From Acidobacteriota bacterium (GTDB lineage Bacteria; Acidobacteriota; Terriglobia; Bryobacterales; Bryobacteraceae): 64,000 bases of DNA. Below the pieces are notes generated by a model. It was not told the origin of the DNA and did no database searches. It saw only the letters and a program-made list of their open reading frames with translations. A program made the position numbers and the translations under genes. This document shows positions 23,163-48,402 of this stretch, piece after piece (position 1 is the stretch's first letter; each line of letters begins with the position of its first letter). The DNA lies in contig QHXW01000367.1 in the NCBI GenBank assembly GCA_003223115.1, forward strand, positions 1 to 64,000, given 5' to 3'.

Positions 23163-23981
23163 ATGGGTGAGCAAGTTGTCGAAGTTGAATTTCAACGATT
23201 CTGGCGCAGGCTGCAGCAACTCGGTTTGAACGCCTACGAATCGCGGTCTTATCTGGTGCTCCTCGGTCATCCGAAATTCAAAGCCCTCGAATTGGCTGCC
23301 CGGGCGCACGTGCCGCGACAAAAGATCTACGAAGTGCTGGACAGTCTGGTGGAAAAGGGGTTTGCGCAGGTGGTGCAGGAGAAGACCAAGCTCTTCTCGG
23401 CGGTCGAGCCCAACCTGGCCATCCCCAGCTACCTCTCACGCAAGCGGCAGCTTCTGGAGCATGAACTCACGGACCAGAGTCGCGTCGCCGCCGGGTTGAT
23501 TGACGATCTGAAGACGCTGTACTCGGAAGGACAGGGTGGACGCGGGACTCTCGATTTTCTGAGGATCGTGACCGAGCCGGCTCAAACAGCGGCCGAATAT
23601 CGCAAAATGCTGTCTGAAGTGACCAGTGAGTATCTCGAATTTTCACGCCCGCCGTATGCCGTCGATCCTCTGGACGAGAAGCTGGTGAAACAGGCGCGCG
23701 AGGGTGGCGTCGCCTGCCGGCTGTTGCTTGAATCCGCCACGCTCGACGATACGCACCGGCAGCGCCTGGGAGAATATTCAGCGGCCGGAGTGGAAGTGCG
23801 CCAAGTGGCCTCGCTGCCCATGAAGCTGGCACTGTTCGACTGCCGCCGCGGTCTGATTGCGTTGCTCGACCCTGTGATCACGCGCCCCGCGTGGACGGCG
23901 CTGGTATTCGACCACAACGGCATGGGCGAAGCACTAAAGGGTTTATTCGAGGAATACTGGAAGCGAGGAAAACCACTCTAG
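23163..23981 (+). CDS. TrmB-like transcriptional regulator
   Basis: A 272-residue protein. The N-terminal winged helix (about residues 10-80) reads LNAYESRSYLVLLGHPKFKA, ELAARAHVPRQKIYEVLDSL, VEKGFAQVV, the hallmark of the TrmB family, which is best known from archaea as sugar-responsive repressors. A helical linker (SYLSRKRQLLEHELTDQSRV) leads to a C-terminal ligand-binding-like domain resembling the phospholipase-D-type fold of TrmB (RLLLESATL, MKLALFDCRRGLIALLDP). The ligand is unknown. It is 29 bases from the end of the convergent glycosyltransferase gene. Confidence 0.82.
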   Translation: MGEQVVEVEFQRFWRRLQQLGLNAYESRSYLVLLGHPKFKALELAARAHVPRQKIYEVLDSLVEKGFAQVVQEKTKLFSAVEPNLAIPSYLSRKRQLLEHELTDQSRVAAGLIDDLKTLYSEGQGGRGTLDFLRIVTEPAQTAAEYRKMLSEVTSEYLEFSRPPYAVDPLDEKLVKQAREGGVACRLLLESATLDDTHRQRLGEYSAAGVEVRQVASLPMKLALFDCRRGLIALLDPVITRPAWTALVFDHNGMGEALKGLFEEYWKRGKPL

Positions 23982-24010: not shown

Positions 24011-24994
24011 CTACCGCGTCTCGCCCGCCACGCCGCGTTTCTTCTGGGTGAGGATTTCGCGCACCGCGTACGTGCGCCGGCCCTGGCTTTCGAAGTAAGT
24101 CCGGATCATCACCTCGCCCAGCAAACCTGTCGAAAACATCATCAGACCGGCCAGTAACAGCAGCCCGCCCAATAGCATCAATGGCCCGTGGTGCAGAAAA
24201 ATATCGTGTCCGTTGATGAGCTTGTCCGCGGCACAGTAGGCCAGAATCAGGAACCCAAGCGACGTCCCGCTCAGTCCCCACGCTCCAAAGAAATGCATGG
24301 GCCGAGTGAAATACTGCAGCAGAAAGCGAACGGTCAGGATATCGAACAGCACGCGGAAGGTGCGGCTCAGACCATAGTGCGACTCGCCAGCCGCCCGGTG
24401 CGTGTTGCGAATCGGCACTTCGGCGACGCGCGCGCCATAAAAGCTGGCCAGCGCCGGGATAAAGCGGTGCAGATCTCCGTAAAGATTGACGTCTTTCAAA
24501 ACTTCAGAGCGGTACGCCTTGAAGGTCGTGCCGAAATCCCGAAGGTCGAGGCCCGATGCGCGCGCCATGAGAAAATTCGCAATGCGCGACGGCAGCTTTC
24601 GCGTAATCGGATTATCGACACGGTCCTTGCGCCAGCCGCTGGCAATATCGAAGCCTTCGTCGATTTTCGCCAGCAGCGCCGGAATATCCTCAGGATCATG
24701 CTGCAGATCGCCATCCATGGCGATGACAATCTTGCCCTTGGCTTCGTGAAACCCCGCGGAAAGGGCGGCACTTTGTCCGAAATTGCGCCGAAGGCGGACA
24801 ACTTTCAAGCGGGGATCGGTCTCTACCAGGTTTGCCAAGAGCTCGAAACTGCGATCTGTTGATGCATCGTCCACAAAAAGGATCTCGTAGGGCCGGTGCA
24901 ACGCTTCGAGCACTGCGGTCAATCGATCGTACAGCGGCAAGATGGACTGTTCCTCGTTGTGTACGGGAACTACGATCGATAACATGACGTTCAT
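24011..24994 (-). CDS. GT2 membrane glycosyltransferase (DPM1/ArnC-like)
   Basis: A 327-residue enzyme. The GT-A domain (about residues 1-220) has LSIVVPVHNEEQSILPLYDR, LFVDDASTDRS, VIAMDGDLQHDPEDIPALL (metal-binding acidic motif) and FGTTFKAYRSEVLKDV. Two C-terminal membrane helices (about 235-260 and 270-295) place it at the inner membrane, as in polyprenyl-phosphate glycosyltransferases. It probably transfers a sugar from a nucleotide donor to undecaprenyl phosphate. The start at 24994 follows a T-rich stretch. It is the last gene after the PA2779/C39/TPR-barrel cluster, 115 bases away, so membership of that operon is likely but not certain. Confidence 0.9.
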   Translation of the reverse strand: MNVMLSIVVPVHNEEQSILPLYDRLTAVLEALHRPYEILFVDDASTDRSFELLANLVETDPRLKVVRLRRNFGQSAALSAGFHEAKGKIVIAMDGDLQHDPEDIPALLAKIDEGFDIASGWRKDRVDNPITRKLPSRIANFLMARASGLDLRDFGTTFKAYRSEVLKDVNLYGDLHRFIPALASFYGARVAEVPIRNTHRAAGESHYGLSRTFRVLFDILTVRFLLQYFTRPMHFFGAWGLSGTSLGFLILAYCAADKLINGHDIFLHHGPLMLLGGLLLLAGLMMFSTGLLGEVMIRTYFESQGRRTYAVREILTQKKRGVAGETR

Positions 24995-25109
24995 TTTATT
25001 TTATTCCAAAAAAAAACTCTGCTCAGTCATCTAGACTGGTCAAATTCGGGCAGGAGCGCCGGTCTCCCGGACCGGTCCTCAATTCCATGATATCAACGCC
25101 ACGTTTCGA

Positions 25110-26819
25110 TTAATGCGACGTGGTGAGATAGAAGGCATTCGCGCCGCTGCGCAAATCCTTCCCATAAGAGAAGACGATGCCCAAGCCGCCCAGGGTACGC
25201 ACTTTGACTTGGATGCCTGTATCCATTTGCCAATTCCGCGCCCTGAAGCTTCCTGAAGCATCCGAAATTCTGCCGGAATCGAAAAACGGGCCGATGCGGA
25301 ACTGGAACAACGTGCCGTCATAGATGCTGCGGTCCGCCTCGGAATTGAACAGAACGTAATCACGGCCTAGCGGCGCGCTACCCTTCTTGCCGTCATGGGT
25401 GCCGATGTGCGCTCGCAAAGGCAAATCGTTGTCCCGTTCGAGCCCGAGAATGAACAGCTCATCGAGAGGGACCATGCCGAATGTCTTGCCGGCGCGAAGT
25501 CTGCCTGATATCCGGTACTTGTCGCCTTCCTTCACCGGTATCCAACGCGCATCGGTGGAACCTTGAATGCGCCAAAACGCACCGAAGCCGGGCGCAAACA
25601 GCTTGCCGAATTCTCCCGAAGCGGTGGCCGTGACGGTGGCGCACTCCTCTGGGATGCGGAACAGCGGATGATCCAGTTGCGCGTGGTACTTGAGCGCCGG
25701 TCCATTGGTGAACAGCCGCGAGCTCGTGGGCGCCGTGAACCTGGCGAACGTCCTATCCGATAAAGCCAGCGCTGTTGACCAGCTCCATTCATCGTTGATC
25801 ACCGACCGGAAGTCAATGCCGCCTTCGAGTTTGTTGAGGTGCAGATCGCTAAGCTGCGCGGCGTCTCCGTGATAGGTCGTGTGCAAGTCCCAGTGCTCGA
25901 TCCTTCCGTCGAGGTAAAAGCGGAGGCGGAGTGCGGGATTCGCTTCGAGCGGCATCGACAGCGCCGCGAAAGCACGCCGTTTCTCCGGGTCGAAGCGGAG
26001 AAGCGAGGTGAAATTCACCGCCGATCGCCAGAAGTTGTAGAACTCCGGGTAAATTGTTTCGTACGGCAAGCCGCGCAGCCAGGAAACCAACGCGGCAGCT
26101 TTCGAGTTTCCCCAGCCACCCCGTTCAGCCGAGCGAAACACCAGGTCGAATTTCTGGTCTTCTTTACGCGCAACTAAATCCAGCCGGTAGCGGGAAAAAA
26201 TCTCGATCAGGTCGAGCAGCGCTTCGGTTCGCCAGAAATCGTGCAACTCGAGCGGACCCGCCGGGGCCATGGCAAAGGCGCGATCCAAAAGCACAGGATC
26301 AAGCGGCGGCACAGGTTCCATCCGAATTTGCTCGATATACGGTTTGCCGATTCGATTCCAGTATTGGAGCGCGGCTTCAAGATTGTTTTCGAGGAAATAA
26401 ACGCTCGCCAGCAGGTCGATGGCATAGCGGTCGGAGCGATCCAACCTGAGAGCGCGATCCAGATTCTTCGTCGCTTCCCGTAAATTTTTCCGCGCGAACG
26501 CCAGACCGCCCAGCTCCACCGGAAAGCGCTTATCGAGGGGCGCTTTTCTCTGGCCGGCGGCAAGAGCCTGGGCCGCTTCATCCCAACGTTGAAGCCGCGC
26601 AAGAGACATCCCGGCGTAGTAGTCCAGGTCGGGCGCGGGATTTGGCTCCCTGTGCCACAGCGCCACAATATCGGACCAACGCTCCTCCGCGTAAAGCGTT
26701 CTTACGGCGGCGAGCGTTTCTTCCGACGCACGCAAATTCGGAATGGCGCACAGAACCAGCAGGCTGAGAATTGGTGTGAGGGCGCAGATGAGCAGAGCCC
26801 GCGGCGGGGCCGGCGTCAC
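25110..26819 (-). CDS. Exported TPR protein with outer-membrane barrel-like C terminus
   Basis: A 569-residue protein. I use the GTG at 26819, whose GTGA overlaps the stop of the C39 peptidase gene; an upstream start at 26870 would run 55 bases into that gene. A signal segment (LLICALTPILSLLVLCAI) is followed by TPR-like helices (about residues 35-190: YYAGMSLARLQRWDEAAQAL, ELGGLAFARKNLREATKNLD, DLLASVYFLENNLEAALQYW). From about 200 on the sequence is amphipathic and strand-rich with many aromatics, resembling an outer-membrane barrel, ending in a surface-antigen-like part (LFQFRIGPFFDSGRIS, GGLGIVFSYGKDL). It may act as the envelope partner of the peptidase. Confidence 0.78.
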   Translation of the reverse strand: MTPAPPRALLICALTPILSLLVLCAIPNLRASEETLAAVRTLYAEERWSDIVALWHREPNPAPDLDYYAGMSLARLQRWDEAAQALAAGQRKAPLDKRFPVELGGLAFARKNLREATKNLDRALRLDRSDRYAIDLLASVYFLENNLEAALQYWNRIGKPYIEQIRMEPVPPLDPVLLDRAFAMAPAGPLELHDFWRTEALLDLIEIFSRYRLDLVARKEDQKFDLVFRSAERGGWGNSKAAALVSWLRGLPYETIYPEFYNFWRSAVNFTSLLRFDPEKRRAFAALSMPLEANPALRLRFYLDGRIEHWDLHTTYHGDAAQLSDLHLNKLEGGIDFRSVINDEWSWSTALALSDRTFARFTAPTSSRLFTNGPALKYHAQLDHPLFRIPEECATVTATASGEFGKLFAPGFGAFWRIQGSTDARWIPVKEGDKYRISGRLRAGKTFGMVPLDELFILGLERDNDLPLRAHIGTHDGKKGSAPLGRDYVLFNSEADRSIYDGTLFQFRIGPFFDSGRISDASGSFRARNWQMDTGIQVKVRTLGGLGIVFSYGKDLRSGANAFYLTTSH

Positions 26820-27364
26820 CGTGCGGGCTGAGGAACGGCGAGCAGGGTCCAATACTGCGCCGCGGCCCACTCTTTTTCAAAGCTCTGCCGGTCGACTTTA
26901 ATCAACTTGCGGCGGGCCGGATCGTTGACCATCAGAATCCCCGCAGCCGGGTCGATGCCGGCGACCACCACGTAATGAAGCGACGCGCCATTCGATTCTT
27001 TGAGACACGCGATCAGCGGTCTGCCCTTTCCGATGTGCCGCTTGAGTTCGGCCCAGTCACCCCGAAAAACGTACGGCTGAAACCCGTTTCGGCGAAAATA
27101 TCGCTCCATATCGGCGCCGCGAATGCCCTTGAGATCCTGGGAGTAGAGCGCCTGCTGGATTTGCCGCGGGTCGGCTTCAGCGCCAGCCATCACTTGTCTA
27201 CTACGCGCCCAATAGCGCATCAGCATCGCGATGGATGCCGAGCCGCAGCCATTCTTCTCCTGCTTGACAAATGGCACATCCAGCCAGACGGCTGAACCGC
27301 ACCACGATACGAGCGCCAACCCGATTGTCGAGAACCAAAGGCGCCTGGCGCGGAGACGCAGCAT
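26816..27364 (-). CDS. C39-like cysteine peptidase, PA2778-like
   Basis: A 182-residue exported protein. After a signal segment (IGLALVSWCGSAVW) comes VPFVKQEKNGCGSASIAMLM with the presumed nucleophile Cys40, then LHYVVVAGID with His130 and VNDPARRK with Asp148, a complete C39-type triad. Length and gene context match the PA2778 family of Pseudomonas, whose members also carry TPRs; here the TPRs are on the next protein, joined by a GTGA overlap. Ten bases upstream lies a PA2779-like gene, the same neighbour as in Pseudomonas. The likely role is proteolysis in the periplasm. The substrate is unknown, and the PA2779-like protein is a candidate partner or substrate. Confidence 0.85.
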   Translation of the reverse strand: MLRLRARRLWFSTIGLALVSWCGSAVWLDVPFVKQEKNGCGSASIAMLMRYWARSRQVMAGAEADPRQIQQALYSQDLKGIRGADMERYFRRNGFQPYVFRGDWAELKRHIGKGRPLIACLKESNGASLHYVVVAGIDPAAGILMVNDPARRKLIKVDRQSFEKEWAAAQYWTLLAVPQPAR

Positions 27365-27373
27365 GAACCGCGG

Positions 27374-27781
27374 TTATCTTGCGGCGACCAGCACGAGAAT
27401 GATCACAGCGGTGCCCAGGGCGATCAAAATATAAGTGATCTGCTGATTGGTGAGCGCCCCGGCTGCAAGATCGTTCTGAATTTGTTCCGTTCGCCGGGCC
27501 AGGCTGGCAACTTCTTCATCGCTCAGAGAGCTCACGGCGTGCGAGATTTTCTCAGGATCCAGCTTCATGCCTTTAAAAGCTTTTTGAGCCGGATCCGAAG
27601 CGAAAAGGCGTTCGATTTTAGCCAGATTCTGCTGACGCGTCTGCGCCGAAGTCGCGACCACATGATGCGCAGCCGAGGGTGAAACGATGTGATCGTCCGG
27701 TGAAACTCCCTGTGGCAGAGCCTGTAGAGCCCCCAACGAAATCAACGCCATCACGGTGAGCATACGTCGTGAACCTGTCAT
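27374..27781 (-). CDS. PA2779-like small membrane protein
   Basis: A 135-residue protein with a signal segment (MLTVMALISLGALQALPQG), a helical middle part (QTRQQNLAKIERLFASDPAQ, MKLDPEKISHAVSSLSDEEV, LARRTEQIQNDLAAG) and one C-terminal membrane helix (ITYILIALGTAVIILVLVAA). This is the PA2779 family layout as I know it. A good ribosome-binding site (AGGAGG) lies about ten bases before the ATG. It is first in the cluster with the C39 peptidase, and a second copy of the family is at 47983-48402. The middle part probably sits in the periplasm, anchored at its C terminus. No biochemical function is established for the family. Confidence 0.85.
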   Translation of the reverse strand: MTGSRRMLTVMALISLGALQALPQGVSPDDHIVSPSAAHHVVATSAQTRQQNLAKIERLFASDPAQKAFKGMKLDPEKISHAVSSLSDEEVASLARRTEQIQNDLAAGALTNQQITYILIALGTAVIILVLVAAR

Positions 27782-47400: not shown

Positions 47401-47936
47401 GCAAACGGTTCCTGAACAAAGGCGGATTCGCGGACAGAATCGTCGGTGGGTGGCAGTTCAATAGCATCCTCAGAGTGACCTCCGGTCCGCCGTTCTTCTT
47501 CCGATCCGGCACCTGCAACGTGCCGGAGCAGTTCCGTGTTGGCTGCATTCCCGGCGTTCTGCCGGGCGCCAATCCATGGGCGCAAAGCACGAGCAATTTC
47601 GAACCCAGCAAGCCTTTGTTCAACAAGGCGGCGTTCGAACCCGCGAACAGTTTCAACCTTTATTTCGGCAGCGGCTCCCGCATCACGAACCTAAGAGGTT
47701 TTGGTTATCACAACGAAGACTTCAGCCTGGTGAAGAACACTCACATCACCGAGAAAGTTGGCTTTCAGCTCCGCGCCGAAGCGTTTAACGTGTTCAATTT
47801 CCATATATTCAGCGCCACGGGGAACTTTGGAGGCAGCGCTATTACCACCGACGTTTCCAGCCCGAGCTTCGGATTGTGGAATGGGAGCGTCAGCGATCCG
47901 CGAAACCTGCAGATTGGGGCGAAGGTGATTTTCTGA
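44448..47936 (+). CDS. Oar-like TonB-dependent receptor 2
   Basis: A 1162-residue receptor. I choose the ATG at 44448, six bases after AAGGAG and at the start of a clean signal peptide (SLVIAILGFSSFWLAPACLA). Residues about 28-115 are the carboxypeptidase-regulatory-like domain (GTVTDPSGAAVPSAEVTLTS, DGLYSFLNLQRGGYELKASA). The plug (about 120-280) includes SGDEAVLDGASAQEG and ISILSSNYEPQYGASLSGQI. The barrel ends RNLQIGAKVIF with the aromatic terminal residue. Import of large carbohydrates or similar ligands is the expected role. A PA2779-like gene follows after 46 bases in the same direction, which suggests co-transcription. Confidence 0.92.
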   Translation: MSAKSLVIAILGFSSFWLAPACLAQSFNASISGTVTDPSGAAVPSAEVTLTSVETGSVAKTTSGQDGLYSFLNLQRGGYELKASAAGFRTFVQRGISISIKDTVRVDIKLEVGTETQVIEVSANVSPINSDNGELKGTVTPETIQDLPLIVSGAVRSATSFIILQPGVNTGNSGNAFNARTNGGLQSGDEAVLDGASAQEGAMAQSGYVSLGTDMPVSPESVGEISILSSNYEPQYGASLSGQIVATTKSGTNQFHGSAYWFHRNTALNARPFGANSRPKDLEHDFGWSLGGPAKLPGLWTSKNKTFFFANFEGYRFKGGVNKPILSVPTDKMKQGDFSEWPDPIYNPATTHTVNGKVVRDQFPGNIIPPSLIANSLANAWLKFVPSPNRPGVLHNYEVPLPVTTIAFANSNGWDLRVDEYVGDKDHFAGNYHYRGTHPFNETKLPRVIDTADFRDPNYSNIARLNWDHTFTPALLNNFNFGYLDLRSNQVNLSDKLKDQIPSIPGVGGTNHEPAMRFDDYDGYGGNAGGAGFRPSYIVNDLFSWVRGTHTLKFGMEYRGLGENNTGDSNNSGTFNFTRLNTGLLGVTSGNAIASFLLEDVSNANATFYTLLSNYPRQHAWIFHGGDTWKVTPKLSLNYGLRWDVATPTAEKRDNMSFFDFGPNPGADNRSGRLAFAGNKWGSASFGKQYPEKVFYKAYAPRIGFAYSPDTKTVVRGGYGIFYTQAFYSGWGGGVATDGFNSTVSFAGELGGLKPAFLLSQGFPQNFQHPPFIDSAYRNGQSLNYRPFEGNRRPYSQQWNLTIERQLPGNFLITTAYVANKGTRLPSRIVPINALDPQVLSTYGSKLYDQFQPGQTVLDGVPIPYAGWREQMTGCTPTVAQALLPYPQFCSSLQGVNENAGSSTYHSFQLKAERRFSQGIWMLASYTFSKLITTSENTQADAATWSGLTGIISPFERKRNKGLSQDDVPHVLSWALTYELPIGKGKRFLNKGGFADRIVGGWQFNSILRVTSGPPFFFRSGTCNVPEQFRVGCIPGVLPGANPWAQSTSNFEPSKPLFNKAAFEPANSFNLYFGSGSRITNLRGFGYHNEDFSLVKNTHITEKVGFQLRAEAFNVFNFHIFSATGNFGGSAITTDVSSPSFGLWNGSVSDPRNLQIGAKVIF

Positions 47937-47982: not shown

Positions 47983-48402
47983 ATGTTCCGTTTCGTTCGA
48001 CCGTACTTGAGTATCGTTCTGTTGTTCACGCTCGCGGTATTTCCGGCATTGCCTCAAGCCGCACCTGGGCGCGATCACATTGTTTCCGCCGCGGACCTTC
48101 ACCGGGCGGTGCGTGCGACAGGGGAGGCCCGCCAAGCGGACCTCACGAAGATTGAAAGATTCTTATCCACCGAGACCGCGAGACAAGCCCTCAAAAAGGC
48201 GGACCTGGACCCCGTTCGGATCACTCAGGCCGTTTCGGTTTTCAGCGATGAAGAGCTGTCGCGTCTCGCCGCTCTAGCCGACAAAGTCCAGAATGACGTG
48301 GTGGCAGGCGAGTCGGCCCATCGTCAAATTTTGAAATACGCGATCATCGGTGCCGCTACGTCGATACTCATCTGGGTGATCGTGACCCACAAAGCTACGT
48401 AA
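47983..48402 (+). CDS. Second PA2779-like small membrane protein
   Basis: A 139-residue protein from the ATG at 47983, preceded by GGAGG. Its layout is the same as that of the protein at 27374: a signal segment (YLSIVLLFTLAVFPALPQA), RDHIVSAADLHRAVRATGEA, RQADLTKIERFLSTETARQA, KKADLDPVRITQAVSVFSDE and a C-terminal membrane helix (KYAIIGAATSILIWVIVTH). The two share D-H-I-V-S, the LxKIERxxxx core and the xSDEExxxLA turn. Unlike the other copy there is no C39 peptidase or TPR gene beside it; it follows a TonB receptor. The function is unknown. It may serve the peptidase encoded 20 kb away. Confidence 0.82.
   Translation: MFRFVRPYLSIVLLFTLAVFPALPQAAPGRDHIVSAADLHRAVRATGEARQADLTKIERFLSTETARQALKKADLDPVRITQAVSVFSDEELSRLAALADKVQNDVVAGESAHRQILKYAIIGAATSILIWVIVTHKAT

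Follow-up and report, generated by a model that had tools for sequence, protein, structure and literature searches.

A conserved cassette of PA2779-like, C39 peptidase and TPR-POTRA-Omp85 genes in Acidobacteriota: a candidate system for C-terminal protein processing in the cell envelope

We describe a three-gene cassette in a 64 kb window of the genome of a soil Acidobacterium; "the window" means this whole stretch, which is part of a 79 kb contig in a draft genome of 9.1 Mb. The cassette encodes a small PA2779-like preprotein that ends in a transmembrane (TM) helix, a C39 peptidase, and an outer-membrane protein in which TPR helices are followed by a POTRA-like unit and an Omp85 barrel. On balance we favor the interpretation that the three genes encode a cell-envelope system dedicated to C-terminal processing, in which the peptidase would cut the preprotein just before its C-terminal helix. 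The direct supports for this interpretation are a conserved operon, a gene fusion, the Omp85/POTRA fold, an intact peptidase active site, and an invariant glycine at a near-fixed distance from the C terminus. The PA2778 and PA2779 families are named after genes of Pseudomonas aeruginosa, and the trio may define an envelope processing or secretion route without prior description.

The three-gene cassette

The genes of the cassette and their parts are as follows.

27374..27781, minus strand: PA2779-like preprotein, 135 aa, consisting in order of a signal peptide, a small domain, an [A/G]G motif and a C-terminal TM helix; NF033919, 35.3 bits, E 1e-8, cut-off 40; homologues lie upstream of C39
27458..27463, minus strand: Ala107-Gly108, presumed cleavage motif; Gly invariant in 109/109 relatives
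27374..27457, minus strand: C-terminal anchor segment past Gly108, 27 residues plus stop, hydrophobic helix (from the sequence)
26816..27364, minus strand: C39 peptidase, 182 aa, with signal peptide and Cys40, His130 and Asp148; PF13529 and PF03412
25110..26819, minus strand: TPR-POTRA-Omp85 outer-membrane protein, 569 aa, GTG start; AlphaFold2 model and PDB fold search
26349..26732, minus strand: TPR region, residues about 30-157; model helices and TPR profile matches
26124..26339, minus strand: POTRA-like beta-alpha-alpha-beta-beta unit, residues 161-232; model, and profile match to the last POTRA of a BamA
25116..26045, minus strand: Omp85 barrel, residues 259-568; model and fold search, PF01103 in 3/21 relatives

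The C39 gene starts 9 bases past the stop of the PA2779-like gene, and the GTG start of the TPR protein overlaps the TGA of C39 (GTGA). A sequence-only reading of this DNA had described this overlap and had grouped four leftward genes, the trio and a family 2 glycosyltransferase (GT2), as one tight unit. The overlap and all four open reading frames (ORFs) were found where it had placed them. As a unit, the trio held up under comparison with other genomes and the glycosyltransferase did not.

Alignment of C39 against one genome per species, covering 84,980 species, yielded 80 kept loci, all of them in Acidobacteriota according to record titles. These relatives were picked on the basis of C39 only. 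In 79 of the 80, C39 has a PA2779-like gene upstream, and the remaining locus is cut by a contig end. The TPR/barrel gene is directly downstream in 76 of the 77 loci in which the contig reaches that far, the exception being L098. The linkage of the three genes is far beyond chance, and the neighborhood that the sequence-only reading had proposed to look for in related genomes is present throughout the phylum. In a phylum sample of 297 genomes, C39 (E up to 2e-17) was found in 37 genomes and PA2779 in 33, with 31 common to both (Fisher p about 1e-33, a value that overstates the case because Fisher tests ignore shared ancestry). This pairing extends over many families. The full-length TPR-barrel type was found in 20 genomes of the sample, all of which also have C39 and PA2779. 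Its spread is patchy: among 61 close relatives, a clear full-length match was present only in the window genome and seven others, and the two genomes of the same genus gave no such match. The trio is also present in a record of Edaphobacter aggregans (L136), a culturable Acidobacterium.

Clustering of the flanking ORFs revealed no other widely conserved neighbor; the clusters were mostly reading-frame shadows of the trio, with some synteny among close relatives. The unit is thus a cassette of three genes, PA2779-like, C39 and TPR-POTRA-Omp85. The fourth gene of the original grouping is:

24011..24994, minus strand: GT2 of the ArnC/PgfS polyprenyl-phosphate type; family searches

A four-gene glycoconjugate system that includes this glycosyltransferase was suggested by its position, next in the same direction, and by its resemblance to ArnC/PgfS. 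We consider such a system very improbable, as no GT2 homologue was found in the flanks of the 80 C39 loci or at the further loci used to compare gene arrangements, and a gap of 115 bp separates GT2 from the TPR-barrel gene. For these reasons GT2 was placed outside the unit: its neighborhood is not conserved. Within the 115 bp gap, a candidate terminator hairpin was not significant, and intrinsic terminator and promoter signals were not above chance. A TrmB-type regulator gene (23163-23981, plus strand) lies beside GT2 in convergent orientation.

The peptidase and its gene arrangements

The window peptidase belongs to the C39 family, with family matches over cut-off (PF13529, 52.8 bits, 8e-14, cut-off 24; PF03412, 41.1 bits, 1.9e-10, cut-off 22) and the full Cys-His-Asp set that had been recognized from the sequence. 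The catalytic Cys and His are invariant in 121 of 121 C39 relatives and the Asp is present in 114, and the nearest solved relatives are the ComA and PCAT peptidases. Against the PA2778 family (NF033920) the window protein scores 58.8 bits, below the cut-off of 150, and its TPRs are on the next protein. As an observation apart from the cassette, the window genome has a second, distant C39-type domain (G000:C163:35405-35803, plus strand, E 7e-9) in an ORF of 295 aa.

There are three ARRANGEMENTS of C39 and its partner domains among the relatives: split, fused and barrel-less. In the window and most relatives, C39 and TPR-POTRA-Omp85 are split between two proteins. At L077-L081, L178 and L181 a single chain reads C39-TPR-POTRA-Omp85, and at L072-L076 and L083 a C39-TPR protein without a barrel represents the PA2778 form. 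The earlier idea that the TPRs have been moved onto a barrel protein thus describes the split form correctly but is not the full picture. The model of the fused form (mean predicted local distance difference test score (pLDDT) 88.1, predicted template modeling score (pTM) 0.84) places C39 at residues 25-175, TPR at 201-294, POTRA at 300-370 and the barrel at 393-678, and its top fold matches are TamA and BamA. A search of a plasmid collection for the fused form gave no match.

The barrel-less C39-TPR proteins have lipoprotein-type signals and the others have what resemble, as judged by eye, ordinary signal peptides. In each of the three arrangements, the peptidase is positioned in the periplasm. 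Fused chains place it there at the outer membrane, as is presumably also the case for the split form, and we are confident that it acts in the periplasm, close to the outer membrane. The order of the fused chain parallels the enzyme-Omp85 layout of PlpD, which has a patatin passenger (PMC4104836), and this raises the alternative of type Vd-like secretion, with the C39 domain as a passenger that is taken to the surface by the barrel and acts outside. We regard this as improbable given that most genomes encode C39 separately, with a signal peptide of its own, that it is a lipoprotein in the barrel-less form, and that its partner is anchored in the inner membrane.

An Omp85 barrel with TPR and POTRA units

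Family searches of the third protein yielded TPR models and only very weak barrel matches, and the window protein itself has no match to the Pfam Omp85 family (PF01103) at E up to 0.1. This family matches 3 of 21 relatives (best 7.2e-5). An AlphaFold2 model built from an alignment of the 21 relatives has a mean pLDDT of 88.9 and a pTM of 0.83. It predicts TPR helices, then a beta-alpha-alpha-beta-beta unit, then a barrel of about 15 strands. The top 50 PDB fold matches are all Omp85 proteins, including TamA (8.9e-14), BamA and Sam50, and a profile of the POTRA-like unit plus barrel matches, at 6e-9, the last POTRA and the start of the barrel of an ORF that Pfam calls BamA. An Omp85-type barrel following POTRA, the defining feature of the Omp85 superfamily, is found by model, fold search and profile match alike.

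The sequence-only reading had called this a TPR/outer-membrane-barrel protein and had proposed modeling its C-terminal part. That part does model as a barrel at high confidence; the barrel class and the POTRA unit had not been recognized. We also considered a PgaA/BcsC-like polysaccharide porin, as suggested by weak TPR-only matches, and rejected it because all of the top 50 fold matches are Omp85 proteins. As modeled, the third protein is a TPR-POTRA-Omp85 protein and not a generic barrel or a polysaccharide porin. A further protein of this kind (580 aa) is encoded at L188, 5110-6849, minus strand, with no PA2779-like or C39 gene recognized beside it.

An invariant glycine before the C-terminal helix

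The first protein has the signal peptide and C-terminal TM helix that the sequence-only reading had described. Like a second copy in the same window (37.0 bits), it misses the cut-off of the PA2779 family. Members over the cut-off are present in 21 of the 297 phylum genomes, and iterated profiles join the window proteins to them. We therefore file the window proteins as PA2779-like and not as PA2779 family.

Among 109 unique PA2779-like proteins, the single invariant column is a Gly just before the C-terminal helix, a motif that had not been seen in the sequence-only reading. The preceding residue is Ala in 99, Gly in 9 and Thr in 1. The number of residues after the Gly is 23-28 in 105 of the 109 (mode 25), and 70 of the proteins end in R, H or K. 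Relative to the presumed site, P3 is Ala in 94 of the 109 and P4 is a bulky hydrophobic residue in 92%. In the window protein, the stretch spanning the presumed site at Gly108 reads NDLAAGALTNQQ.

Recognition of known C39 leaders relies on L(-12)xxxE(-8)L(-7) together with hydrophobicity at position -4 and, in most cases, Ala at -3 (PMC6959990, PMC6363468). A comparable LxxxELxxLA pattern is found in the PA2779-like proteins (L in 105 of 109, E in 82, L in 96, L in 98 and A in 92), positioned 11 residues further upstream than in leader peptides, or 8 in the case of an Azoarcus protein. This likeness to C39 leaders is suggestive only.

The second copy was overlooked in the sequence-only reading and is a presumed further substrate:

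47983..48402, plus strand: second PA2779-like gene, 139 aa, without its own C39; NF033919
48304-48309, plus strand: its Ala-Gly motif (from the sequence)

This gene follows an Oar-like outer-membrane barrel gene (OMP_b-brl_4, stop at 47936) at a distance of 47 bases, and in two related genomes (L183, L173) the solo PA2779-like genes likewise come after an OMP_b-brl_4 gene. The window genome has at least 61 OMP_b-brl_4 genes, so this adjacency may be chance.

Is the PA2779-like protein a substrate?

We think it likely that C39 cuts the PA2779-like protein, and evidence for this comes from loci in which the PA2779 domain is missing. Six genomes of the phylum sample have a strong C39 without a PA2779 match. 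In the five that were inspected, the peptidase gene is adjoined by a gene for an unrelated mini-protein, about 74-79 residues long, that has a signal peptide, a short mature segment, GGG (ITASDAGGG) and a TM helix that ends 24-25 residues later. These mini-proteins lie beside C39-TPR genes (L167, 5995-6240; L168, 5532-6155; L169, 3941-4450 and 5592-6029; L170, 4178-4546 and 4550-4918; L182, 4133-4384), and two of them that were scanned had no significant Pfam or NCBIfam match. At L166, the PA2779 domain has been lost and the GG-TM end retained. Together, the mini-proteins and L166 suggest that it is the C-terminal end, and not the domain, that travels with C39. An ORF with a signal peptide, [A/G/T]G and TM helix was found within 1.5 kb and on the same strand at 98 of 117 C39 loci, compared to 1 in 608 kb of flanking DNA; because the scan was designed around PA2779, its independent weight lies in the PA2779-negative loci. 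In addition, several PA2779 genes often accompany one peptidase, either as tandem copies or at other places in the genome, as expected of substrates.

The genome G065 (locus L187, 4195-6191, minus strand) has PA2779-like and TPR-POTRA-Omp85 genes and no C39 match, and its PA2779-like protein reads NQARNMMSMSVDRSDVN in place of [A/G]G. This would be the expected pattern if the Gly were kept for the peptidase, and it would also fit a role of the PA2779-like protein in tethering the inner membrane to Omp85 or in regulation between the two, with C39 cleavage as a regulated off-switch and not maturation. We consider the tether quite unlikely: G065 is a single case, and the barrel-less and mini-protein systems retain the peptidase and the signal without Omp85.

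Several observations weigh against cleavage and export as we propose them. The comparison with a genome lacking C39 rests on G065; a search for more C39-less PA2779 loci reached one further genome of its class, which is without the gene. P2 is mostly Ala here, unlike in the majority of known C39 sites, which read GG, GA or GS and so have Gly at P2. The leader-like LxxxELxxLA helix is 8-11 residues too far from the presumed site, and the mini-proteins have neither this helix nor the P4 hydrophobic residue. Since the PA2778 and mini-protein forms lack the barrel, export by way of Omp85 cannot hold for every such system.

It is also conceivable that the C-terminal piece is itself the product, with the PA2779 domain as a leader-like carrier of a hydrophobic peptide of about 25 residues that acts on membranes or is secreted. 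The constant length after the Gly and the leader-like pattern would be explained in this way. In contrast, what is conserved in the C-terminal piece is mainly its hydrophobicity, whereas the PA2779 domain has conserved polar positions, and the peptide would remain in the inner membrane, which makes this explanation unlikely.

Proposed mechanism

We infer the following sequence of events for C-terminal processing by the trio. The PA2779-like preprotein would cross the inner membrane via its signal peptide (Sec), and its C-terminal helix would keep it anchored there while its domain faces the periplasm. TPR-POTRA-Omp85 would hold C39 at the outer membrane, as it does within the same polypeptide in fused relatives. 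C39 would then cut past the invariant Gly of [A/G]G at the periplasmic face of the helix, freeing the N-terminal part, which the TPR/POTRA arm may capture. In the weakest step, the Omp85 barrel might move this product across the outer membrane or insert it into that membrane. Assembly into or transport across the outer membrane is the default role proposed for uncharacterized Omp85 proteins (PMC4104836); that Omp85 exports or assembles the product is possible, and we hold it with some doubt. More speculatively, C39, a family known for cytoplasmic removal of leader peptides, could act here as a periplasmic sorting enzyme. It would recognize a C-terminal [A/G]G-TM signal carried by varied proteins and pass the product to an attached TPR-POTRA-Omp85 translocon, in a new outer-membrane secretion or assembly route; we put this forward only tentatively. 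The sequence-only reading had proposed a system for peptide processing or export in the envelope, in which the PA2779-like protein is either a partner or a substrate. This proposal fits the evidence, and the role of substrate is now favored.

Comparison with known systems

The PA2778/PA2779 pair (NF033920 and NF033919; Pfam DUF6627) has the same two families adjacent, and a plasmid pair in Azoarcus is so annotated. The Azoarcus PA2779 protein has AGG before its TM helix. Unlike this pair, which has no Omp85 neighbor, the window has TPRs and Omp85 on a third protein, and the window proteins are below both curated cut-offs. The open-licence literature that we searched contains PA2778 and PA2779 as names only, with no functional study, and no description of an Omp85 link or a C-terminal signal for such systems was found in it; an account in a subscription journal is possible. 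The components that the trio brings together are of known kinds (C39 processing, Omp85 machines and C-terminal sorting signals); we found no description of their combination.

The closest experimental precedent is the functional amyloid system of Pseudomonas, in which the periplasmic C39 peptidase FapD requires its catalytic Cys for export via the outer-membrane protein FapF (PMC5557850). The target of FapD is described as unknown (PMC5557850, PMC6173800). Both systems combine a periplasmic C39 with an outer-membrane protein channel. However, FapF is a trimeric 12-strand channel with a coiled coil and not Omp85, and no C-terminal anchor motif is described for Fap. The window C39 has no FapD match at E up to 0.1, and a fused relative scores 15.8 bits against a cut-off of 330. 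With an Omp85 barrel and no other conserved neighbor, the trio is not a Fap amyloid secretion system.

The double-glycine leader peptidases of PCAT and ComA share the peptidase family, a Gly-type site, Ala at P3 and a hydrophobic P4. They differ in that the trio is without an ABC transporter, its enzyme has a signal peptide and is predicted to be periplasmic, and its presumed site is before a C-terminal anchor with mostly Ala at P2. Similarly, BamA, TamA, FhaC/TpsB and PlpD of the Omp85 superfamily resemble the third protein in having POTRA and an Omp85 barrel, as judged by model and fold search, whereas the trio protein also has a TPR arm and an attached or linked C39. Heinz and Lithgow (PMC4104836) distinguish ten Omp85 subfamilies, none of which is a TPR or C39 form, and the term "TPR" is absent from that paper. 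The gene fusion physically ties periplasmic C39 enzymes to an Omp85 architecture that was not part of the earlier superfamily survey.

The closest logic is that of GlyGly-CTERM and rhombosortase, in which a signal peptide, a glycine motif and a C-terminal TM helix are served by a dedicated protease that is encoded adjacently if it has a single target (PMC3237569). The PA2779-like proteins have the motif and TM helix, but the basic cluster is reduced to at most a terminal R, H or K, and the GlyGly-CTERM model was not among the NCBIfam matches of the scanned proteins. Rhombosortase was over the cut-off in 1 of 32 genomes (best score in the window genome 48.1 bits, cut-off 84), and it was rejected as the enzyme for the Gly-TM end in nearly all genomes. 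The window enzyme is a soluble C39 cysteine peptidase and not a rhomboid. With this operon, a large set of periplasmic C39 enzymes gains a concrete substrate and cleavage site that can be tested, and the comparison with GlyGly-CTERM points to a C-terminal processing signal served by a soluble cysteine peptidase, not by an intramembrane protease or sortase.

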